The notes under the pieces are model-generated. The model had not been told where the DNA came from. It was given only the letters and a program-made list of their open reading frames with translations, and did no database searches. DNA of 55,792 nt from a virus, in IMG/VR virus record IMGVR_UViG_3300045885_000606, positions 1-55,792 of that record; one strand, 5' to 3'. Of the stretch, positions 3,877-55,792 are shown piece by piece. Position numbers and translations under genes: made by a program. The stretch's first letter is position 1; each line of letters begins with the position of its first letter.

Positions 3877-5531
3877 AGCCCACCTCCCACCATCTAGTCT
3901 CGCACACGCGCCCTCTGGGCACAACCCCCCGCTCTCCGCACTGCGGACGAATTGTACGCGATCTACTTGCTGAGCACACCCCGAAGCTTTCCCGTACAGA
4001 ACCAAGACTTCTATAAGCACGCCCGAGGGAGAGAGGAGGGGGAAACCTTAGGAAGGGGGTGGTGAGAGTACCTTCCACCAATAAGATCTTCTGAGGTATT
4101 ACGGGGGGAAATCGGTACTCGCTGTTCGCGGTGAGTGGTGTGCGTGAGTAAGGTGGTGTTCACTGCGTTCACAGAGCAGCGCTGAGAAGTAAGGGCTCAC
4201 TCGTTGTTGCCATCCGGCGGGGCGTGTCAAAAGTTCGTGTTACGTGCGGCCAGGGCCCCGCAGAGAGGAAGGTGTACCACATATGGGCAGTTGGAGTGCA
4301 GCGGGCACTTCCAGGGGACACGGCGAGGCCGCCCCCTGGACCCACAACGCTTGATCCCTCCACCGCGTCTTTCTGGCGCCTAAGGTGTGGGGCGGTACGC
4401 AAAGTGGCAATAAGTCACATGGTACGAACAAAGCGCCAACACATGGCACTCCATACTGTCGTGAAGCCACAACCAGACAGGAGCGAGCAAACCGACGTGA
4501 GATCACCGAACGGTAGTCTGTAAGGAACCGAGCCGACTAGAACATGCAGCTAGGTTCTAGAAGCGAGTGCAGCGAGCGTGAGCTTTCTGGCCTTTTTGAC
4601 TTATATCTTAGTAGTTCAGTGAGCAGGTCGCGCCGAATTTGTGCGCTCGCCATGGCCGCTGCCTCACTGAAAAATCCCGCCTTGTCTACGCCCATAGGTT
4701 CTAATAGTCAGCGTCTCACTGGACTATTGACATGATAAGCATGGCTGATACTGGAACGTGAGTCCATAAGTTGGCAGAGAACTATTTTCAGTGGCCCCAC
4801 AAGTCATTGATATGTGGTGCGTTACAGTACCAATAAATCACCACTTACCATATATTTACTATATACATGACACCAGTATAGGCGTATGATGGGGCTACAA
4901 TCTGATATGGTGATCTAACATGGAGGATAAAGGAGGATAGTAGAACAGTATAGGATGCACCATAAGGGAGTTATGACCCTGGCCGTGCTTAGCAACTGGC
5001 AAGCACGGTGGACCCACTGACAACCCAAGTTCTGGCACGCGGTCACACGCCGAGCCGTACCCTAACCTGGAATACTTGAGTGTAGTCTGGTTTGCGCTGG
5101 GAATGCAGTGCAGGCTATAGGCGCAGTCGAAACAGGGGAGAGGCACACACAGGGTAAGGCGATCATTCCGTAAGATACCTGGACTGGTACATAGCGAACC
5201 TCTAAGCACCGGATAAGGCGCGGTGGAGCGTTGAGGCTACGGGAAGGAGGAACGCAGGAGGAAGGAGCGACGTAGCACGCTAAGGTTGGTACCGCTACAC
5301 AACTCATGCCTGGATCATGGTAAGGAGAGCCCTCACAACTCTGGAGAGCGCCATGACCCTCATGCATGGAGAGCGCACCTTGCACTGTGACGACGCGCCA
5401 CTGCAAGCCACAGCCCCATGCTACCACCCAGACATGAGACGGCAACCCGGCAAGTGCAATGCTTGCCAGTGGTCGTAGGGTATTGGTAGCCCTACATGAT
5501 TAGTCACCTCGAAACCACGAAAGGCAAGACC
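3877..5531. other. Long gene-poor region between divergent late and early modules
   Basis: About 1.65 kb with no convincing gene: the open frames on both strands are short, Cys/Pro/His-rich and lack consistent ribosome sites. It holds a polypurine tract (4021-4070), a perfect 7-bp inverted repeat CTAGAAC/GTTCTAG (4537-4560), an AT-rich patch (4790-4920) and, just before the first rightward gene, a GTAGGG/CCCTAC stem. An AAAGGAGG at 4928-4935 precedes only a 21-codon frame (4952-5017). Being the divergence point of the two transcription units, it probably holds their promoters and may include an origin; neither is proven. Confidence 0.6.
4855..4882 (+). promoter_or_regulatory. Candidate rightward promoter
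   Basis: TTTACT, 16-bp spacer, TATAGG inside the AT-rich patch. Weak match to sigma70; about 650 bp before the first rightward gene. Confidence 0.25.
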
Positions 5532-6326
5532 ATGCAACACGCCCACGGTTCACACAGTACTCTCATGGAGTCACGGCAGGGTACGCACATGCCAGACTAC
5601 GACCCTATCGCCATCCTCAACCCGCACATGGCCAGACTGCCCTGGCACGTAGACCACACCGTACCCACCTCAGCCAGACCAGTAGCCGAGCCGACCGTAC
5701 CCACGCTACCAAAGCGTGGAGAGTGGAAACGGAATCACGCCAGACGCTATAGCACGCCCCTGGACGTGACCAGCAACACGCCGCTTGGCAATCGCTATGC
5801 CTTTGGGGTGTATGGCCGTGATGGAGGAATACAGAAGTATCGACGCTGGCTTTTCCAGCGCATCCAGGAACGCCACGTAGGAGTGATGGCGCAACTCAAA
5901 CGCATCACACCCGCAAGTACCTTGATGTGTACCTGTCGGGAAAACGAGCGCTGCCACGCTGATGTCATCATACGCGCATGGTCCTGGTTGGTGAGTACTG
6001 GTGTTATCCCCAAGACCTGGACCGACGCACACAAGCCAGCCCCCACTTCCACCCTCTCCACCAACTACGCCAACTCCTCCTTGATCCTGCGTAGGGGAGA
6101 GACGCCAGAGGCAGAGCCCGAAGTACCACCCGTACCAGTACGGTATACACAAGAGCCAGAGGCAGAGCCAGTAGCCCCACCGAAGAAAGCCAGAGCGAAG
6201 CGGCCAGCCTCAAAGCCACGTCGGACGAGAGCGCAGAAAGAACTTGCCTGGATCACCGCAGCCTTGAAGAAAGCCACCGTAGCACCTGATAAAGCGCAGT
6301 GGAGCTTCGTACACGCCAGTATCTAA
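5532..6326 (+). CDS. DUF4326-domain protein
   Basis: 264 residues. ATG 5532 is chosen because an AAAGG site sits 7 nt upstream, whereas the earlier in-frame ATG at 5496 has none. Residues about 76-150 match the DUF4326 pattern: NRYAFGVYGRDGGIQKYRRW, then a helical stretch and CTCRENERCHADVI with its Cys-x-Cys...Cys-His set, probably metal-binding. The C-terminal third is low-complexity, Pro/Glu then Lys/Arg-rich. DUF4326 proteins are common in phages and of unknown function. It stands alone at the head of the early region and is followed by a stem-loop. Confidence 0.85.
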   Translation: MQHAHGSHSTLMESRQGTHMPDYDPIAILNPHMARLPWHVDHTVPTSARPVAEPTVPTLPKRGEWKRNHARRYSTPLDVTSNTPLGNRYAFGVYGRDGGIQKYRRWLFQRIQERHVGVMAQLKRITPASTLMCTCRENERCHADVIIRAWSWLVSTGVIPKTWTDAHKPAPTSTLSTNYANSSLILRRGETPEAEPEVPPVPVRYTQEPEAEPVAPPKKARAKRPASKPRRTRAQKELAWITAALKKATVAPDKAQWSFVHASI

Positions 6327-6343
6327 CCACACCTCACAACCTG

Positions 6344-6369
6344 GATTGTTGGGACAAGCACCAACAATC
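6344..6369 (+). terminator. Stem-loop after the DUF4326 gene
   Basis: Perfect 9-bp stem GATTGTTGG/CCAACAATC with an 8-nt loop, 18 bp past the stop. There is no U-run directly after it, so it may be a factor-dependent terminator or a processing hairpin. Confidence 0.5.
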
Positions 6370-6380
6370 TAGTTTGTGGT

Positions 6381-6394
6381 GTCAAACTTTTGAC
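6381..6394. promoter_or_regulatory. Palindrome, possible operator
   Basis: GTCAAA-CT-TTTGAC, overlapping a TTGACA hexamer (6389-6394... TTTTGACAG) in the 394-bp gap (6327-6720) before the next gene. The gap otherwise shows a run of T (6407-6431 region) and GC-rich DNA without a credible reading frame. Confidence 0.3.
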
Positions 6395-6720
6395 AGTGAG
6401 GGTACAAAATTTTTTCCCAAGCCCCTTTTTTTCTGCTGAGCTGCACGGTGGTTGACGCTCATCTGCCGGCGTGAGCACAGTGTATGTGCGCTCGCTCCAG
6501 GTACCGTCAAGCAACCGTGCATCCATATGCGGGAGAACGTGGCAGCGTGTTCGTCACCTGCCTAAGGTCCCGCGAAACCCATCCCTGCTCGCCCCTGCCC
6601 ACAAGCCCGGCTGGGGGAGGGAGGGGGCCGGTCCGCCGCTGCGCGAAGCGCCAGCGGCCAGATGGTGGCACACGCCACCTGTCTTTGGCGATCAGGCGAA
6701 AACGACTGGAGCAAAGTCTG

Positions 6721-16084: not shown

Positions 16085-16143
16085 CAACTTTACCATACTT
16101 TCCACCATGTGTGCTACAGAAGAACATTTTTTTGGAGGAGATC

Positions 16144-16659
16144 ATGGCAGACAAACGGAGAGAGCGCCCCCCGGTAAGCGAGTATCAGCAGAAACTGCGC
16201 GACCCACGCTGGCAACGCCGGCGGCTGGAAATCATGGAGCGCGATCAGTGGCGCTGCCAGATCTGCTTCAACGATGGAGAAACGCTTCATGTCCACCATC
16301 GCTACTATGAACAAGAGACCGAGCCCTGGGAGTATATGGATGTAGCTTTAGTGACTCTCTGTGCCACATGTCATGAGAAAGAGACAAACGCACGAAGAGA
16401 AGCCGAAGAGTGGTTATTGCGTTCTCTCTATGATTGTGAATTATTTTCGCATCATCTACTGAGATTAGTCAGTGGATTCATGTATTGGGAACAGGTGCAT
16501 ATGGTCGATGTAATGGTCGATATGCTTGCATGGGCTCTTGGAGAGAAAGAGATTATGGATGAACTTCTGGAAAGATATTTTGATGATCTCAAGGAACGTC
16601 ATCCAGTCAAGTTTGAACAAGGTAAAATGTTTGCACCAAGGCACTGGAGAAAGCCATGA
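16144..16659 (+). CDS. HNH-motif protein
   Basis: 171 residues from ATG 16144 (GGAGGAG upstream). YQQKLRDPRWQRRRLEIMER, then CQIC (about 38-41), HVHHRYY (49-55) and LCATCH (73-78) give an HNH nuclease signature with its zinc-binding Cys pairs. The C-terminal half is helical and acidic. Such stand-alone HNH proteins are common in phages, as homing or packaging-associated endonucleases. First gene of the operon behind the 16048-16075 promoter. Base composition is more A/T-rich than the early genes before it, which may indicate separate acquisition. Confidence 0.82.
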   Translation: MADKRRERPPVSEYQQKLRDPRWQRRRLEIMERDQWRCQICFNDGETLHVHHRYYEQETEPWEYMDVALVTLCATCHEKETNARREAEEWLLRSLYDCELFSHHLLRLVSGFMYWEQVHMVDVMVDMLAWALGEKEIMDELLERYFDDLKERHPVKFEQGKMFAPRHWRKP

Positions 16660-19526: not shown

Positions 19527-19976
19527 GAGCGCAGCCCCTTACCCAGAGGATCCCGGCAATGGCGAGCGCAGCCGGCTATCCAGAGGACCCCGAAGCACAG
19601 GAGCGCAGCCGTGTCATGGAGGACCACGGACAAGAGAGCGCAGCCGTTTGAAGGGAGGATCCCGCGGGAAATGAGCGCAGCCGCAAAGGGAGAGACCCCC
19701 GGAATCCTGGAGCGCAGCCGCTGAGAAGACAATCCCGACGTACCGAGCGCAGCCGGGATATACGAGGACCACGAAAGAGGATAGCGCAGCCGCAATGGTA
19801 GAGAAACCCCAATAGATACGAGCGCAGCCGAATGACAAGAGTATCCCGAGAGGAGAGGAGCGGAGCCGAAAGCCCCGAGAACCCCGATGTGACGGAGCGG
19901 AGCCGTATCGAATGAGCATCCCGTGAAAAGAGCGCAGCCGCTGGACGCGAGAATCCCGCTGTCCATGAGCGCCCAG
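19527..19976 (+). repeat. TIGR-like guide array 1 (12 units)
   Basis: Twelve tandem units start at 19527, 19564, 19601, 19636, 19673, 19710, 19745, 19782, 19820, 19858, 19895 and 19930, with a degenerate end at 19967. Each is [GAGCGCAGCC]-A spacer-[GAGNAYCCCG]-B spacer. A spacers are 8-9 nt (mostly 9, nearly all starting with G); B spacers are 6-9 nt (mostly 8). The period is 35-38 bp. The two conserved blocks keep their order in every unit while both spacers change, unlike CRISPR (one repeat, long spacer) or iterons. This matches tandem interspaced guide RNA arrays, whose processed RNAs are about 36 nt with two short spacers. Block variants: GAGCGGAGCC in units 10-11, TAGCGCAGCC in unit 8. 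The transcribed strand cannot be fixed from sequence. Confidence 0.88.
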
Positions 19977-19988
19977 AAGGAGCATCCT

Positions 19989-22130
19989 ATGCCCGTCCCA
20001 GACATTGCCCTGGTTCCCGAGGAGTACATCGACTTTGATCTGACCTTACGCCTGGATCGTGATCTCGCCATCGCGGCCGGGAACTTGACCCCCCTCCAGC
20101 AGCGCTTCCTGGTGGATATGTACTACCAGGTGCAGGAGTCACGCAAGTCTGCCGCCAACCAGCTCCGCTCTGCCAGGGAAGAACCCAACGCCTTTATCAC
20201 CATGCTGGCGGCGTATCTCATGAAGTTAGAGCGCACAATCGTCAGCGCCCTCAACAAGGCCACCGACCAGCGCCCGGTGACGGCGTGGGCGAAGCGGCAG
20301 CACGGGATTGGCCCCGTACTCACGGCGGGCTTTGCGGCGCACATCGACATCCATATCGCCAAAACGCCTAGTGCTATATGGCGCTATGCGGGACTCGACC
20401 CAACCGTCAAGTGGGCCAAGGGGCAAAAAAGACCATGGAATGCGGCCTTGAAGGTCTTGTCGTGGAAATTGGGTGATTGCTTCTGTCTTAAGCCTGATCA
20501 AACCGTAACAACCAGGCGTGGCTATATCCCCATCTGTGAGGTCGTTAGGGGAGATGAAGTTCTTACGCACCATGGGCGCTGGCAGCGAGTAACGGACGTT
20601 CTCGTGCGCGACTATGCTGGCCCACTCGTCCAACTACGGGCGTTTGGACGAGCAAATCAAGGGCCATGGGTGACGTATGGACATCCTGTCTATACCCGTC
20701 AGCGTCCAGTCATCTACTACAGCGAGGGAGAGAGGCAGCGCTGGAAACATGGAGGAAGAGTCCAAGAGCAGCGCTTTGTTCGCGCCGCACAGATGCGTGC
20801 ATTGTACGAAGAAGGCTTGTTACTGAAAGAGATTGCTACTCGCTTTGGCGTCAGCGAAGCCACAGTGTCACGAAACGTACGGTATCTCAATAATGCCTAC
20901 TCTTCTATGCCTGTAGGGTGGATCGACGCCGAAGACATCCAGCGTGGATGGGATATTTATAGCCCGACTATCCCTGCGACGGCGGCCCGTCTCATGCTAG
21001 ACTTCCGCAGTCTTCCCGACTTGCTCCCAGTAGGAGACCACCAGGTGCGCGCACGAGGGAATCGTGCTATTCCTGTTCCAGCCACGGTCGCTGTCACAGA
21101 GCAAGTTGCTCGTCTCATTGGTCTCTATCTGGCAGAAGGGCATGCGGCGTCACATCAGGGACAACTTGGCTGGTCATTCCATCTCAACGAGCGGAGGTAT
21201 CAGGAGGAGGTCAGACAGACTATCGCTGAGGTTTTTGGACTTAACAGCAGTCTCTATGAGTATGTCGCTGGTCACTCTGCCCAGGTCATCGTGGCTTCAA
21301 AGCCACTCGTTATGCTGTTTGCCCACCTCTTTGGCTCGCATGCTCACACCAAACACCTGCCACCCTCCTGGCTCGAAACACTTGGAGACGCTGAGGCCCG
21401 AGCGCTTCTTCGTGGGCTCTATGATGGCGATGGGCATGATTATCACGGCGACAAACCTGGAGAAGTCCTTACAACGGTCTCGAAGACTCTCGCCTATCAG
21501 GTGCATGATCTCGTGAGGCGTCTTGGCATGCTTGCGTCTATCAATGTGGACAAGGAGGTCTATAAAGTCCGCATACAAGGACGAGAGATTACCGCTGAAT
21601 GGACGCCTACCGGCACCTGGCATAGCGTGAAGTCCATCCCAGAAACCTTCTATGCCGGCCCAGTCTACAATCTCGAAGTGGCTAACGACGAAAGTTATGT
21701 CGCAGAAGGGATTGCTGTCCATAACTGTAAGTTCCACAACCACGAGAAGTGCTTTTACGGGCACATCTATGCCGAGCGCAAGCAACTCGAAGTGATGCGC
21801 AACGCCCGGGGAGATTTTGCCGCGTTGGCGAAAGAGACGCTCGAAGTCCGCAAGATCCAGGATAAAGAGACCCGCCTGGTCTACGAGTCCGGGAAGCTCC
21901 CGGCCGGGCGCCTGGAGCTGCGGGCCCGCCGTGTGGCCGTAAAGCTCTTTCTCGCCCACTGGTTCGAGGTCGACTTTACGCATACCTTTGGCGTGCGCCC
22001 GGAGCTGTCGTATATTCTGATGCACGATCCAGAGACGCATACCCACTACATCCCACCGCCCCTGTGGGATCCGCCCGTAGACGTGAAGGCGCCAGCACCT
22101 AAAGCCGAAGACAGTGAGCATCCCGCGTAA
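19989..22130 (+). CDS. Tas-like IS110/Nop-domain protein with intein
   Basis: 713-residue precursor. ATG 19989 is chosen for the AGAAGGAG site 7 nt upstream; the frame upstream of it is array. After removing the intein (residues 166-579) a 299-residue protein remains: an N-terminal helical half, then HGIGPVLTAGFAAHIDIH and WRYAGLDPTVKWAKGQKRPW, NAALKVLSWKLGDCF joined to CKFHNHEKCFYGHIYAERK, and a C-terminal RAxRxAVKLFLAHWF region. This is the IS116/IS110/IS902-type domain found in many phage 'transposase-like' proteins, related to the Nop domain of TIGR-associated (Tas) proteins. No HNH or RuvC domain is fused, so it would be a nuclease-less TasA-type binder. It is flanked on both sides by guide-like arrays, which strongly supports an RNA-guided role. 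No IS110 DEDD catalytic N-domain is evident. Confidence 0.82.
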   Translation: MPVPDIALVPEEYIDFDLTLRLDRDLAIAAGNLTPLQQRFLVDMYYQVQESRKSAANQLRSAREEPNAFITMLAAYLMKLERTIVSALNKATDQRPVTAWAKRQHGIGPVLTAGFAAHIDIHIAKTPSAIWRYAGLDPTVKWAKGQKRPWNAALKVLSWKLGDCFCLKPDQTVTTRRGYIPICEVVRGDEVLTHHGRWQRVTDVLVRDYAGPLVQLRAFGRANQGPWVTYGHPVYTRQRPVIYYSEGERQRWKHGGRVQEQRFVRAAQMRALYEEGLLLKEIATRFGVSEATVSRNVRYLNNAYSSMPVGWIDAEDIQRGWDIYSPTIPATAARLMLDFRSLPDLLPVGDHQVRARGNRAIPVPATVAVTEQVARLIGLYLAEGHAASHQGQLGWSFHLNERRYQEEVRQTIAEVFGLNSSLYEYVAGHSAQVIVASKPLVMLFAHLFGSHAHTKHLPPSWLETLGDAEARALLRGLYDGDGHDYHGDKPGEVLTTVSKTLAYQVHDLVRRLGMLASINVDKEVYKVRIQGREITAEWTPTGTWHSVKSIPETFYAGPVYNLEVANDESYVAEGIAVHNCKFHNHEKCFYGHIYAERKQLEVMRNARGDFAALAKETLEVRKIQDKETRLVYESGKLPAGRLELRARRVAVKLFLAHWFEVDFTHTFGVRPELSYILMHDPETHTHYIPPPLWDPPVDVKAPAPKAEDSEHPA
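20484..21725 (+). other. Intein inside the Tas-like protein
   Basis: 414 residues. Block A starts at Cys1 (20484): CLKPDQTVTT...VVRGDEVLTHHG. Block B is WVTYGHPVYTRQ. A helix-turn-helix insert follows (MRALYEEGLLLKEIATRFGV, SEATVSRNV). Two LAGLIDADG motifs follow: RLIGLYLAEGHA and ALLRGLYDGDGH. The end is YNLEVANDESYVAEGIAVHN, then a Cys +1 extein residue. All splicing residues (Cys1, block-B His, terminal HN, Cys+1) are present, so it should splice and encode an active homing endonuclease. It breaks the extein at the conserved WKLGDCF motif. Confidence 0.93.
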
Positions 22131-22460
22131 AGAGAGCGCAGCCGTCATCGCTGATCAACACGTCAAAAGTGAGCGTAGCCGAGTCTGGTGAGCATCACGT
22201 AAAACATGAGCGGAGCCGTATAGGAAGATCACCACGTCAAAGGGGAGCGTAGCCGAGAGCCCAGAGAGTCCAGTTAAACCTGAGCGCAGCCGTAGATAAG
22301 AAGAACCCCGAAGCACAGGAGCGCAGCCGCTGTGTGCTGAGAACCCCGCATGAGAGGAGCGTCAGCCGCTCTCCACGAGCATCCCGTTGGAAGAGAGCGC
22401 AGCCGAAATAGACGAGTATCCCAAAGAGATCGAGCGCAGCCGTCAGGCTGGAGCACCCCG
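22107..22460 (+). repeat. TIGR-like guide array 2 (about 9.5 units)
   Basis: Units start at 22134, 22171, 22208, 22245, 22282, 22319, 22357, 22395 and 22432. A partial unit (A spacer 22107-22115, second block 22116-22125, B spacer to 22133) lies inside the last codons and stop of the Tas-like gene. The organisation is as in array 1: first block GAGCGCAGCC with variants GAGCGTAGCC (22171, 22245), GAGCGGAGCC (22208) and GAGCGTCAGCC (22357), then a 9-10 nt A spacer, second block and 8-nt B spacer; period 37-38. Second blocks of the first three full units end CACG instead of CCCG. The B spacer AAGCACAG at 22311-22318 equals that of array-1 unit 2 (19593-19600). Confidence 0.87.
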
Positions 22461-22486
22461 TAACGCCGAAGCGACGAGGGCACCAG

Positions 22487-22510
22487 GGCGTCACCCTCGA
22501 AGGTGACGCC
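22487..22510. terminator. Stem-loop at the end of array 2
   Basis: Perfect 9-bp stem GGCGTCACC/GGTGACGCC with a 6-nt loop, 27 bp beyond the last unit and 31 bp before the stop of the convergent XRE gene. Probably a bidirectional terminator or array-end processing signal; no clear U-run. Confidence 0.6.
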
Positions 22511-22540
22511 GGTCCCACGTCCTGGCAGTGTGCCCTTGAC

Positions 22541-24350: not shown

Positions 24351-24642
24351 TAATGTCACCTTTCTCAGCGATCTGGAGAGTGCCAGGCCCAGTGCCCTCC
24401 TGGCCCATCTCGATCCCGCGCTTCTCGTCGGACACTACGTGAAGCGGGCCTTTGCCGCTCGCCGTACCCAGCGACTCGAACATATGTGGGTATTGGTTGA
24501 GCGGGTGCTTCAAGGAGGAATCCTCGAAGGCGTCCTGGATAACGATCCCGTCCTCGACGTGGGGCTTGCCTGCGGCGACAGCGTCCAGGTACACCCCAGC
24601 ACCATCGAAGCCATCTACAGAGGTCCAGGAGGTGGACGGTGA
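24331..24642 (+). CDS. Hypothetical protein
   Basis: 103 residues from ATG 24331, behind AAAAGG and a poly-C linker. Helical; no motif recognised. Its stop overlaps the ParB-like gene's start. Confidence 0.64.
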   Translation: MIHEPRSNVTFLSDLESARPSALLAHLDPALLVGHYVKRAFAARRTQRLEHMWVLVERVLQGGILEGVLDNDPVLDVGLACGDSVQVHPSTIEAIYRGPGGGR

Positions 24643-25676
24643 TCACCACATCACAGGCGCGCAAGTCCGTCAGTCGCCTGCCCAAACCAGGTGTGGCTCC
24701 ACCACAACCTCGGGTGCACCGTGTCCTGCAACTGGTCTCACACGGCATGGCGAGTGAGTTGCTGCGCGAGCACTACCCGAATCAGCGCCCCATCCGGCCG
24801 CATCATGTCCAGTATCTGCGCTATCTGATGCGCGTCGGACATTTTCGCCAGGGCTCCGAAATCCACCTCGCCGAGCTGGGCCAAAAGCGCTGGCTCCTCA
24901 ATGGCTACCATACCCTCACCGCCATTGTCCTGGAGCGCCAGCCGGTCTGGCTCTCGATTACCACCTATCGCTGTACTCAGCCTGACGAAATCTCCAGGCT
25001 CTATGACAGTTTTGACCGCAATTTGCAGCGCTCACTTGCTGATATGTACCACGCCGATCCCCTCCTGGGGGCAGAGGAATGGAGCCGGCGGCAGATTACC
25101 CAGTTAGGAGGCGCCATGCTGCCGCTCGCCCTGGGTTTTCAGTCGGAAGTCTTTGGCCGCAGCATCTACACCCTCATGCTGCGTGATGCCATCTTACGCC
25201 TGACACTCATGCATTCCTGGCTGCCGGAAGCGCGGAATGCCTTTGCCGGTCTCCAGGGCAAGCCCCAGCTTCGCGCCGCCCTCCTCCGCGCTGCAGTCTT
25301 CGCGGTCATCCTCTCCACCTACCGCTATCAGGCCGAGAAAGCACACCAGTTCTGGCCAGAAGTAGCACGCAATTCCGGCCTGAAAGTAGGTCAGCCAGCC
25401 CATCTCCTGGTGCATTTTCTCCTGACGACCACGGCCAGGCAACTGGAACCCACGCTCTATGCCCGCCATGTCGCCGCCTGCTGGAATGCGTATGTGGACG
25501 ATCGGGAGATACACCGGATTGCTGCCCGCACGATGACCCAGCCGATGCTGCTCCTCGGGACCCCCCATAGTGGCGACCGTGTCATGCAATACCTCGATCA
25601 GGCGGGCCAGGTGCATGAGCGACCAGTGCAGCGGGAGATGCCCTTAGAGAAAGTCGAGGATCAAGACGATGTTTAA
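24639..25676 (+). CDS. ParB/Srx-fold-like protein
   Basis: 345 residues from GTG 24639 (GGAGGT upstream). Residues about 45-115 follow the ParB nuclease-like layout: RPIRPHHVQYLRYLMRVGHF, IHLAELGQKRWLLNGYHTLT, AIVLERQPVWLSITTY, then a helical C-terminal domain. The GxHR/GERR-like turn is NGYHTL, seen in phage ParB-like proteins. Possible roles are DNA nicking, host takeover or segregation of a plasmid-like prophage. No ParA is present, which argues against a classical partition system. Confidence 0.76.
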   Translation: MITTSQARKSVSRLPKPGVAPPQPRVHRVLQLVSHGMASELLREHYPNQRPIRPHHVQYLRYLMRVGHFRQGSEIHLAELGQKRWLLNGYHTLTAIVLERQPVWLSITTYRCTQPDEISRLYDSFDRNLQRSLADMYHADPLLGAEEWSRRQITQLGGAMLPLALGFQSEVFGRSIYTLMLRDAILRLTLMHSWLPEARNAFAGLQGKPQLRAALLRAAVFAVILSTYRYQAEKAHQFWPEVARNSGLKVGQPAHLLVHFLLTTTARQLEPTLYARHVAACWNAYVDDREIHRIAARTMTQPMLLLGTPHSGDRVMQYLDQAGQVHERPVQREMPLEKVEDQDDV

Positions 25677-37027: not shown

Positions 37028-37479
37028 CTGCTGCGGCAGCATGCCGCATACAGTGTTGCATAGGGCACAAAATAACAGGTACAATCTCTGTAGTTCTTTG
37101 AAACTCAGCATAGGGCGTTGTCGCAGGAAGTCTGCGACGTAAAATGTTGAACGCCAGAGGATCAGATGCTTAATCTGCTGCCGGACTCGTTGCGTCAGCC
37201 GCATCGGATGTATTGCCCCTCCGTATCGTGCCAGGAGCGAGAGCCGTCTAGGCAGCCCTGGTGTGGGTATGCAGGTGATCATCTGTGTCAACACCCCGAA
37301 TTGACCCGTATCGTTGTGCTTCCACAGGCAACGTCGCGAGGGAAGCGGGACGGTAAGTGCTGGACAGGTGCTCCGGGTGTGGGAGCAACACCAGAGCCAG
37401 CACGGGGCCGGAATGGCCCACGAGATGTACCGCGAGGTACAGTCTGGAATCCCCTGGCTTTAGCCATGGGGAGGTTCAA
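37028..37479 (+). mobile_element. IS200/IS605-type end element B (no transposase)
   Basis: Begins with the same 24-bp hairpin motif as element A (37028-37051), followed by a similar GCATAGG..ACAAAATA stretch. It ends with a 55-bp right end (37425-37479) identical to 53540-53594 and closing with ...GGTTCAA, which resembles the TCAA cleavage site of IS605-type right ends. The preceding GGGGCCGGAATGGCCC stem is common in omega-RNA scaffolds. No transposase or TnpB gene. Confidence 0.68.
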
Positions 37480-47997: not shown

Positions 47998-49294
47998 TTA
48001 TGCGTTATTGATGCCGTACACCCGCTGATGGTGTCTCAGCGACAAGAACTGGAGCTGCCAGAGCAGATAAATCCTTGATATAGCTACAAACTGGTATGTG
48101 GGCTGAATGAACGGATCTATTCTGAAGTGCATATTGGGGTGGAATATAGGCCTAATATACTTCTCTGTGTAGAATTGCATCTCCCCAGCCGGAACGAACT
48201 GATCATGGAGAACTACAGCGCGGTTGAACATCAGGTTGCGGAAGCCGCCGCGGGTGGTTTCCTCGTCTTCGATGAAGCGCTGGTTATTGACCAGGGTGCC
48301 CCAGTAGGCGTTCCAGCCCGCTTGCGTGGTGGTAATGAGCGTCGGCTCTTCGTTGCCGAATGAGCAGCGCCCGTATTCCTGCTGCATGCCGGCGGTCGTG
48401 ACCAGAGACGCACCAGCCGATTGCCAGATGGTATCGGCATCGGCATCGGTGGGCCCATTGCCGCCGCCACAGCGCCACACAAAGCCCGTCGAGGCGTTGT
48501 TCTGGATGGTGATCCCGGCATAGGTGCCTGAGGCGGCCAGCGCCAGGGGCACGCCGTCGACGTCGATGGCGGTATTTTGCGGCGCGGTCCGCTGAATGGC
48601 GCGGTTGAGCTTCATGAGCATCGAGCCAAAGGAGATTTCTTCTTTGACCCGGACCAGGTTGACCACGCCGGGAGGCCCCTGGTTCAAGACCGCGTCGATC
48701 ACGGGAATGGCGATCAATTGTTGGTACGCACGCCCATAAGTTCTGTTATCCCTAAGGCTCTTTATCCTTAGGTTCTGCATATTACTATGCAGCTCCGACT
48801 ATCTCTTCACCCATACGTCAGGGTGCCCGGCACTCGTGGAGGGCTTATTCTTTCGTCACCCTCTAGTCTGTACGCCTTCCGTCCCCCTGGGCCTCACGGC
48901 TTACATGGACGGCTTGGCTCGGGATTGTCCCCAGCATGACCTGGTAGGAGTTTCCCCGAATTCACCGGGTTTCACATGCCAGGTTTCCCTGGCAAGGCAG
49001 CAGCGGTGTTTACTGCAACTCTGCCGGTTGAGCACTGTCTGTCACGTCAGTGCTCAACATCTGCGTACCCCAAAAAGCCCCACCAGTTAGTTCTTCTTGA
49101 TTTACTACTGTCCAGACAATTGCCCCACCATGAAAACGCCGACCCAGACGCGTCAACCTCCATAACAGCGGTGAAGGGCGGAACACCGCGTCGACCAGTT
49201 GTGGCTGAAAGTACTTAGTGGTAACACCGTTAGCCGTATTGACAAGTGTAATAGGCGGTTGTGATAGCTGGCTACCTATACCCCCTGCTGCCAT
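47998..49294 (-). CDS. Major capsid protein, interrupted by a group I intron
   Basis: Exon 1 is 49294-49012 and exon 2 is 48734-47998; joined they give 339 residues. Exon 1 ends ...DSAQPAELQ plus one base; exon 2 restores Trp and continues RAYQQLIAIPVIDAVLNQGP, GVVNLVRVKEEISFGSMLMK. The joined sequence has the composition and order of HK97-type capsid proteins (VTDSxQPAExxW, followed by a helix and the long beta strand). Without splicing the frame stops immediately after exon 1. Scaffold upstream and a small structural gene downstream fit. An ATG at 48780 inside the intron opens a frame that would start a truncated protein if unspliced. Confidence 0.87.
48735..49011 (-). ncRNA. Group I intron (277 nt, no ORF)
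   Basis: Recognised on the minus strand by the conserved core: GGTGAATTCGGGGAAACTCC (P3-P4-P5), GGGACAATCCCGAGCCAAGC (P6-P7 joining), CAGACTA (P7 5' strand) pairing with GATAGTCG (P7 3' strand) after GGTGAAGA, a P8 stem GAGGG...CCCTC, and a P9 hairpin CCTAAGG/CCTTAGG. Exon 1 ends in U; GCAGU pairs with an internal guide GCUGC, giving the U-G splice pair. The intron ends in G, and the exons join in frame to a Trp codon. Confidence 0.9.
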
Positions 49295-53539: not shown

Positions 53540-53594
53540 ATGTACCGCGAGGTACAGTCTGGAATCCCCTGGCTTTAGCCATGGGGAGGTTCAA
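53540..53594 (+). mobile_element. Second copy of the IS200/IS605-type right end
   Basis: 55 bp identical to 37425-37479, containing GTACCGCGAGGTAC, the CCCCTGGC-TTTA-GCCATGGGG hairpin and the terminal GGTTCAA. Only the right end is present, between two late genes, with no transposase. The exact identity of two copies 16 kb apart implies recent mobility or conversion. Confidence 0.75.
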
Positions 53595-54633: not shown

Positions 54634-55792
54634 TTACCACTGGAGGAACTCCGTGGGATAGGTGAGCGGTTGAGTGCCGTAGGCCAGGAGGAGATCGGAG
54701 AGCACAGTACGGTCCCTATCCTCCGGATCCGGCGTGTGGTCAAGCCCAGCCTGGGCCCACGGGAAGGCCGGCGCCGCGTGGAGAGGGACGCCACGTTTGA
54801 CCACGTAGTTTTCCGAGCGCGACATGAGCGCAATACCGAAGGCAAAGAGGAGATCATCGTGGCCAGCCAGGGCTTCGAGCTTCCCCGAATCCGATTCCCC
54901 AAAGGTCCGGAGCTGGCGCACCAGAGCCCGGGAGTGGAGAGCCACACGCTTTTCTAAGATCACTTCCTGAATGCGGGCCAGCATCCGTGGGCGGGTGCGC
55001 ACATTGGTATTATGGCCGACCAGGCCATCAGCAATGAGCGTATGGTCTGGATCAGTCGTCAGACCAATCACCTCGCCATCTGGCAGAGGGATGATGCTGT
55101 CGACTGGCATACGCTCAAACGACCTGAGGGTCAAGTATCCAGCCTCGGCAAACGCCGCAAAGCGCCTGAGAAGCCGTGTCGGACGGAGTGAACCGAGTGC
55201 GCGCAGCACTTCCACCACACGCAGCACGCCGGTGGTCTGTATGGTCTGCTCCTGCGGACGGTCTTTATGCCGCATCCACTTGAAGATGGCGTCAAAGCCA
55301 CATTTCCCCCAGAGATCGGCAATCTCATCGGCGAGGAGTCCTTCGACCTGCGTTATAAGCAGTTGATAGCCGCCACGATCCCCGCCCCTGGAGAGATGGC
55401 CTTCACCATCAAGAAACGCAGAGAGTCTTCCGGCTTCATAGGTGCGCAGGCTCTCCCACATCGGCAGATACCTGAGCAGATCACCTTGCCTGAGCCGTGA
55501 GGCTTCCATCCACTGCCATCCCACATCTTTGCGGCTCTGCCTGAACACCAAAAAAGGATGGTTGGTACTCACACAGGTCGTCTCGCCATTGGCAAGCACC
55601 ACCTTGCACCTCGGGGCAGGAAAGACCTGACGGCTCTTAATCGTCTGTATCCGTACATGGATCGCACTGCCTTTTCCCCCTGTGACGCGCTCCTGGCAGC
55701 CCAGTATCTGGTCACCAACCTCAAGCGTATGCGCCTCCGTCCAGCGTAAATCTGACGTAAGGATGCGGGACGAGGGGTCAACACATTCCCAT
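54634..55792 (-). CDS. terL: Terminase large subunit, intein and C-extein (continues from base 10-1481)
   Basis: Continuation of the leftward terL frame. The last N-extein residues WE are at 55791-55786, followed by the intein (55785-55009) and a 124-residue C-extein: TNVRTRPRMLARIQEVILEK, RVALHSRALVRQLRTFGESD, GKLEALAGHDDLLFAFGIAL and an extended C-terminus to 54634. The TxxxTRPxMxAxLxE pattern is the terminase nuclease region (Terminase_6C). GHDDLLFAFGIAL is the conserved nuclease motif ending in the catalytic Asp pair. The window boundary cuts the gene only artificially. Confidence 0.93.
   Translation of the reverse strand, partial: WECVDPSSRILTSDLRWTEAHTLEVGDQILGCQERVTGGKGSAIHVRIQTIKSRQVFPAPRCKVVLANGETTCVSTNHPFLVFRQSRKDVGWQWMEASRLRQGDLLRYLPMWESLRTYEAGRLSAFLDGEGHLSRGGDRGGYQLLITQVEGLLADEIADLWGKCGFDAIFKWMRHKDRPQEQTIQTTGVLRVVEVLRALGSLRPTRLLRRFAAFAEAGYLTLRSFERMPVDSIIPLPDGEVIGLTTDPDHTLIADGLVGHNTNVRTRPRMLARIQEVILEKRVALHSRALVRQLRTFGESDSGKLEALAGHDDLLFAFGIALMSRSENYVVKRGVPLHAAPAFPWAQAGLDHTPDPEDRDRTVLSDLLLAYGTQPLTYPTEFLQW
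55009..55785 (-). other. Intein inside the terminase
   Basis: 259 residues. Block A is CVDPSSRILTSDLRWTEAHT then LEVGDQILG. Block B is TTCVSTNHPFLV. One LAGLIDADG-like motif lies in RLSAFLDGEGHLS. The end is DSIIPLPDGEVIGLTTDPDH, then ADGLVGHN and Thr as the +1 residue. All splice-site residues are present. With only one clear LAGLIDADG motif the endonuclease may be reduced or inactive. Confidence 0.9.
55667..55792. repeat. Right copy of terminal direct repeat (circular overlap)
   Basis: Identical to 10-135; see the left copy. Merging the two gives a circle of 55,657 bp. Confidence 0.93.

Follow-up and report, generated by a model that had tools for sequence, protein, structure and literature searches.

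A Phage Locus with the Features of a TIGR-TasA System and an Effector Gene Interrupted by an Intein

Here, we describe a locus in IMG/VR virus record IMGVR_UViG_3300045885_000606 (the window; the whole stretch of 55,792 bases that was analyzed), at which two arrays of alternating short repeats lie next to a gene, tasA, that is interrupted by an intein. The locus very probably represents a phage-borne TIGR-TasA system with an intein-split effector. The two dual-repeat arrays at 19527-22473 were confirmed. TIGR array 1 (19527-19966, + strand; found by reading, parsing, and repeat excess over shuffles) holds 12 complete units, each consisting of an edge repeat, spacer A, a loop repeat, and spacer B, and is followed by a terminal edge repeat truncated at its 3′ end (GAGCG, 19967-19971, + strand), which overlaps the likely start codon of tasA (ATGAGCG). 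The first unit of array 2 (22103-22133, + strand) overlaps the last codons of tasA and is made up of a 5′-truncated edge repeat (AGCCG), AAGACAGT, GAGCATCCCG, and CGTAAAGA, with the tasA stop codon inside its spacer B. TIGR array 2 (22134-22468, + strand; parsing and TRF), in whose first four units the repeats have diverged, has 9 complete units and ends in a further 3′-truncated edge repeat (AAGCG, 22469-22473, + strand). Truncated edge repeats thus stand at array ends at 19967, 22103, and 22469; in total, the locus has 21 complete units and a 22nd whose edge repeat is cut short.

The edge repeat of the window is GAGCGCAGCCG (11 nt) and the loop repeat is GAGNAYCCCG (10 nt); units are 35 to 39 nt long (mode, 37), with a spacer A of 7 to 9 nt and a spacer B of 6 to 9 nt, mostly 8 + 8. 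The window has 24 copies of GAGCGCAGCCG at one mismatch or fewer (20 of them within the arrays), whereas shuffles of the whole window have 2.8 ± 1.7. The parsing and this excess bear out the tandem dual-spacer arrays flanking one gene that a preliminary description had proposed, and two alternating repeats of 8 to 12 nt with spacers of about 9 nt beside a tas gene are what marks a TIGR-Tas array. One spacer B, AAGCACAG, is found in the units at 19564 and 22282, each time with a different spacer A. CRISPR-Cas, which has a single repeat type, long spacers, and cas genes, was rejected as an identity for the locus: the repeats are of two alternating kinds, the spacers are 8 to 9 nt, and the effector has no Cas match (Pfam, NCBIfam, and PADLOC). 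Past array 2, a GC-rich hairpin (GGCGTCACC...GGTGACGCC; 22485-22515, + strand; found by folding) is a possible transcript end without a T run; the fold of 22451-22530 has a z score of −2.65, and the terminator scan makes no call on the hairpin.

Relatives were collected from viral contigs (48 loci) and bacterial genomes (14 loci, including Acidobacteriaceae bacterium KBS 96, Halomonas sp. NO4, and a Latescibacterota chromosome), giving 55 nonredundant loci. Dual-repeat arrays of this clade lie within 1.8 kb of tas in 46 of the 55 and in each case share its strand (downstream of the gene in 23, upstream in 14, and on both sides in 9), and at least 2 of the 9 loci without an array call (L050 and L057) carry repeats of another consensus. 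A two-sided array had at first been thought unusual; since 9 of the 55 relatives are two-sided, it is not, and the founding paper on TIGR-Tas also states this layout (PMC12045711). The usual repeats of the relatives are GAGCGAGCC[AG] and GAGAGNACC[AG], so that the edge repeat of the window is one base longer. At the last repeat base, the frequency of A in edge repeats correlates with that in loop repeats (r = 0.96 over 32 arrays; the window has G/G), which is the edge/loop covariation that characterizes TIGR-Tas; matched variation of this kind is reported for the TIGR box motifs (PMC12045711). On the Latescibacterota chromosome, a ParB-like gene (L156, 5925-6589; recognized by eye) directly follows tas and precedes an array of about 50 units, a layout that resembles the tasParB operons of PMC12045711. 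At L158 (4881-6434), in an Acidobacteriota genome, a single 517-aa frame matches TIGR-Tas above cutoff and, farther downstream, weakly matches ParB (E = 0.002); it is a possible Tas-ParB fusion.

The tasA gene (19965-22130, + strand) was recognized from its open reading frame (ORF), an above-cutoff match to NCBIfam NF052498, and matches to TasH and TasR in the PDB. The ATG at 19965 is the favored start, and 19989 (713 aa) and a GTG at 19923 are possible; the favored ATG overlaps the truncated edge repeat of array 1, and the ATGAGCG start recurs in L041, L045, L046, L047, and L152, which are relatives with an array upstream of tas. The unspliced frame scores 147.8 bits against NF052498 (TIGR_Tas_endo, an equivalog model; curated cutoff, 100). 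Once spliced in silico, the protein matches the solved structures of TasH (PDB 21kl; E = 6.2e−11), in an alignment that crosses the splice junction, and TasR (PDB 9mty; E = 4.5e−8), as well as phrog_4285 (E = 4.6e−34), a family that is also hit by the TasH of Salicola phage CGphi29. An AlphaFold2 model of the intein-less relative L018 (predicted local distance difference test [pLDDT], 86) has ten PDB matches at E < 0.001, all of them TasR or TasH, and IS110 recombinases come next. In the model of the unspliced precursor, the exteins are confident and the intein is of low confidence for lack of relatives; TasH and TasR again come first among the structure matches, followed by IS110. The profile search and structure prediction that the preliminary description had called for thus both came out in favor of its proposal of a TIGR-Tas-like system.

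No nuclease domain was found outside the intein (Pfam and NCBIfam), and only a short N-terminal region precedes the Nop-like part. The protein is assigned to the TasA type because no HNH or RuvC nuclease domain lies before the Nop region, in agreement with the nuclease-less type first suggested; membership in TIGR-Tas, TasA type, is borne out by each feature that could be examined apart from the terminator, where the hairpin lacks a T run. An HNH gene at 16111-16659 was considered as a nuclease partner and rejected, being 3 kb distant and of an ordinary phage HNH family. An IS110 transposase was likewise rejected as the identity of tasA: the protein has no N-terminal DEDD/RuvC domain, and its Transposase_20 match is below threshold.

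The intein (20478-21725, + strand; Pfam, TIGR01443, and splicing blocks) comprises 416 residues (164-579 of the 713-aa frame). It separates an N-extein of residues 1-163 (19989-20477, + strand; alignment and model), which holds a coiled coil and the first part of the Nop/IS110-like domain, from a C-extein of residues 580-713 (21726-22130, + strand; alignment A3 and pLDDT), which holds the rest of the Nop-like domain. Within the intein are Hint splicing blocks, a helix-turn-helix (HTH; 269-300), and LAGLIDADG motifs at 374-386 and 471-484. It matches LAGLIDADG_3 (4.6e−13), Intein_splicing, and Hint_2 in Pfam and TIGR01443 (intein_Cterm) above its cutoff; blocks A, B, C, E, F, and G are present, and the C-terminal His-Asn is followed by Cys+1. 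Insertion is at the invariant motif CWKIGE|SF, with Cys+1 replacing a near-invariant Ser. The C-extein is collinear with 25 relatives across the junction, its pLDDT is mostly above 90, and both exteins retain conserved residues. Splicing blocks, terminal Asn and Cys+1, and collinear intein-less homologs, the features by which an intein is recognized, are therefore all found here. That the gene is split by an intein had been noticed earlier and stood; the exteins, given then as 1-165 and 580-713, are corrected to 1-163 and 580-713, and the spliced product, given as 299 residues, is 297 aa from 19989 or 305 aa from the ATG at 19965.

A second IMG/VR contig (28,348 bases) is 100% identical to the window throughout array 1 and the N-extein and in most of the intein, which makes an assembly error unlikely for this part of the layout. 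Apart from that contig, which has the only other intein of this kind found in tas, no intein occurs in the relatives with extracted ORFs, and the ORFs of the viral relatives are 249 to 466 aa long (the identical contig and one fragment excepted). The description of an intein-bearing effector as unusual therefore stands among the relatives examined. Inteins are not mentioned in PMC12045711, and searching full texts for inteins together with IS110 gave no title or abstract reporting one in these effectors. The intein is a new element of an otherwise known TIGR-TasA system. Separately, a second LAGLIDADG/intein-like match was seen at L007 (G002:C1:107402-107824), in a 1296-aa frame of a phage that also carries L003.

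Sitting within a core TasA motif, the intein could have broken the gene and left a TIGR-Tas locus in decay that has ceased to make active effector, and the divergence of some edge and loop repeats in array 2 would suit such decay. The frame, however, is open over 713 codons, and all splicing blocks are present, including His-Asn and Cys+1. The C-extein keeps the invariant residues of the family, which would not persist had it never been joined to the N-extein. We consider decay very improbable.

Among known systems, TIGR-TasA with dual-repeat arrays, as in Flavonifractor plautii (FpTIGR; Faure et al. 2025, PMC12045711), is like the window in its solo Nop-domain protein without a nuclease, its two alternating short repeats and two short spacers, its arrays upstream and/or downstream, its truncated edge repeats at array ends, and its matched edge and loop termini. 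The window differs in the 416-residue intein of its effector and in its spacers of 8 to 9 nt, and its edge repeat of 11 nt gives a mode of 37 nt where those systems have 36. TIGR-TasH of Salicola phage CGphi29 (PDB 21kl, 9w02-9w04, and 9vzx) has a homologous Nop-like domain in the same PHROG as the window protein, and TIGR-TasR (PDB 9mty), the top fold match of the intein-less relative, has a homologous Nop-like domain too; both carry an N-terminal nuclease (HNH in TasH, RuvC in TasR), which the window protein lacks. With IS110 elements (IS621 and ISCro4), the effector shares the Transposase_20/Nop-type RNA-binding fold (Foldseek E of about 0.05, probability 1.00; weak in Pfam), but it has no DEDD/RuvC domain, and dual-spacer arrays take the place of one bridge RNA. 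The intein has Hint blocks and two LAGLIDADG motifs in common with LAGLIDADG inteins such as PI-PkoII; in contrast, its host protein is a TIGR-Tas effector, intein-free in all relatives examined.

By analogy with these systems, array 1, tasA, and array 2, which run in the same direction, are probably read as one transcript. Cuts in the edge repeats would release guide RNAs (tigRNAs) about 37 nt long, in each of which two spacers of 8 to 9 nt would lie between the box D/C-like ends (GAG...CCG) common to edge and loop repeats. A dimer of spliced TasA guided by tigRNAs would bind DNA and not cut it; without a nuclease domain, TasA would block or bend DNA.

The arrays of related viruses offer a view of turnover. 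L021 and L022 (G006 and G007; 4990-6500) come from one metagenome dataset and have tas genes of 94% nucleotide identity. Their arrays are collinear over much of their length, with some spacers differing at 5 to 9 of 9 positions next to identical neighbors. Mismatch counts of A and B correlate within a unit (r = 0.67; permutation P = 0.00015), against −0.36 across the edge repeat. In this pair, units change mostly as whole edge-to-edge cassettes, with the repeats kept, which is a lead and not proof, because the correlation is from one pair and was computed after the pattern had been seen. L043 (2108-2971) and L042 (4806-5420), with 95.5% identity in tas and 94 to 95% in the flanks, share only 4 of their 24 and 17 units, each of them whole; these arrays hence turn over far faster than the adjacent genes. 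The whole-unit rule is not absolute, since one unit of L047/L048 retains A and alters B.

This turnover bears on two further explanations. A pair of Cro/CI-like HTH genes adjoins the TIGR locus, which would fit repeats that are DNA sites for a phage protein (iterons or operators) with filler between them. Yet the repeats are of two alternating, nonpalindromic kinds, the arrays accompany a single protein family in 46 of 55 relatives, without exception on the strand of its gene, edge and loop ends vary together, and spacers are replaced as whole units while the repeats stay; we regard protein-binding sites as extremely unlikely. The intein might be a conditional gate on effector maturation while active whole-unit replacement at edge repeats renews the arrays and updates their targets without an adaptation gene, a combination to which we give little chance.

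Targets were searched for under the pairing rule of PMC12045711, by which the two spacers match opposite strands, B on the stretch adjoining that of A. Pairs in which A and B had been shuffled within the array served as controls in every test; unit numbers are upper figures, some units having been parsed in two frames. In the large collections, by rough estimate, single units used as 16-nt queries would meet tens of chance matches. Of 601 units, none had an exact match in its own virus, and near matches were at the shuffled-control level (one order ran high at 3 mismatches, not at 2); a rerun with 496 units, both orders, and gaps of −1 to +4 gave no excess. In other TasA viruses, 587 to 653 units gave no clear excess at 1 mismatch beyond low-complexity matches, with 3 exact matches, of which 2 are one C-rich pair in two related contigs. 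For the host, 52 units of the Latescibacterota array (36 under stricter parsing) were compared with 1.2 Mb (28%) of the chromosome; none matched exactly, whereas about 10 to 15 would be expected to do so if every unit had one target in the chromosome. The results apply to perfect targets in the collections tested and, within that scope, weigh against such targets in the carrier or its host for most guides.

Regulatory roles exist among RNA-guided proteins that lack a nuclease, and regulation of the phage's own genes or of the host chromosome, rather than action on other elements, would suit a locus beside CI/Cro-like genes. The searches of the carrier viruses and of the Latescibacterota chromosome run counter to such a role, which we consider unlikely. 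Bending of DNA by TasA-tigRNA complexes for phage integration or partition, instead of competition with elements, was suggested in PMC12045711, where TasR is reported to bend its target by nearly 180 degrees; the ParB-like gene after tas in L156 and the weak ParB match in the L158 Tas frame point the same way. Dozens of diverse guides with fast turnover, however, fit a fixed site poorly, and a self target was not found, so that this role seems less probable still.

For the TIGR-TasA system with an intein-split effector, two points weigh on the other side: splicing of the precursor is predicted from motifs only, and no target was found for any unit in these searches. Transcription, processing, and dual-strand DNA binding are likely by comparison with characterized relatives. 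As to its role, elimination weakly favors the silencing of competing mobile elements or phages, for which we put the chances at about even.

Bases 10-135 of the window are identical to 55667-55792, and the 28,348-base contig spans this junction; the genome is therefore circular or terminally redundant. Its proteins include a portal, a major head protein, RecT, and a DnaD-like helicase loader, which identify a tailed phage. The portal has no match among cultured phages, and a tRNA search of the window for a host clue found none. A group I intron (48775-49060, − strand; Rfam RF00028, 65.5 bits) abuts, directly upstream, the major head protein ORF (47998-48780), so that with the intein the phage has two kinds of self-splicing element. 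A 345-aa protein encoded 2.5 kb past tas (24639-25676, + strand) shows a ParB-like NGYHTL motif by eye; searches of Pfam (to E = 0.1) and NCBIfam (to E = 0.05) gave no match. An exact 55-bp direct repeat occurs at 37425-37479 and 53540-53594, with 16 kb between the copies.

TIGR-Tas was described in 2025, and its targets and the gain of guides by its arrays are questions of the founding paper (PMC12045711). The mostly whole-cassette change in one virus pair, together with TasA-phage guides that do not match their own genomes, narrows what TasA may do. The intein, for its part, points to a conserved position within the Nop domain and provides a natural on/off handle.
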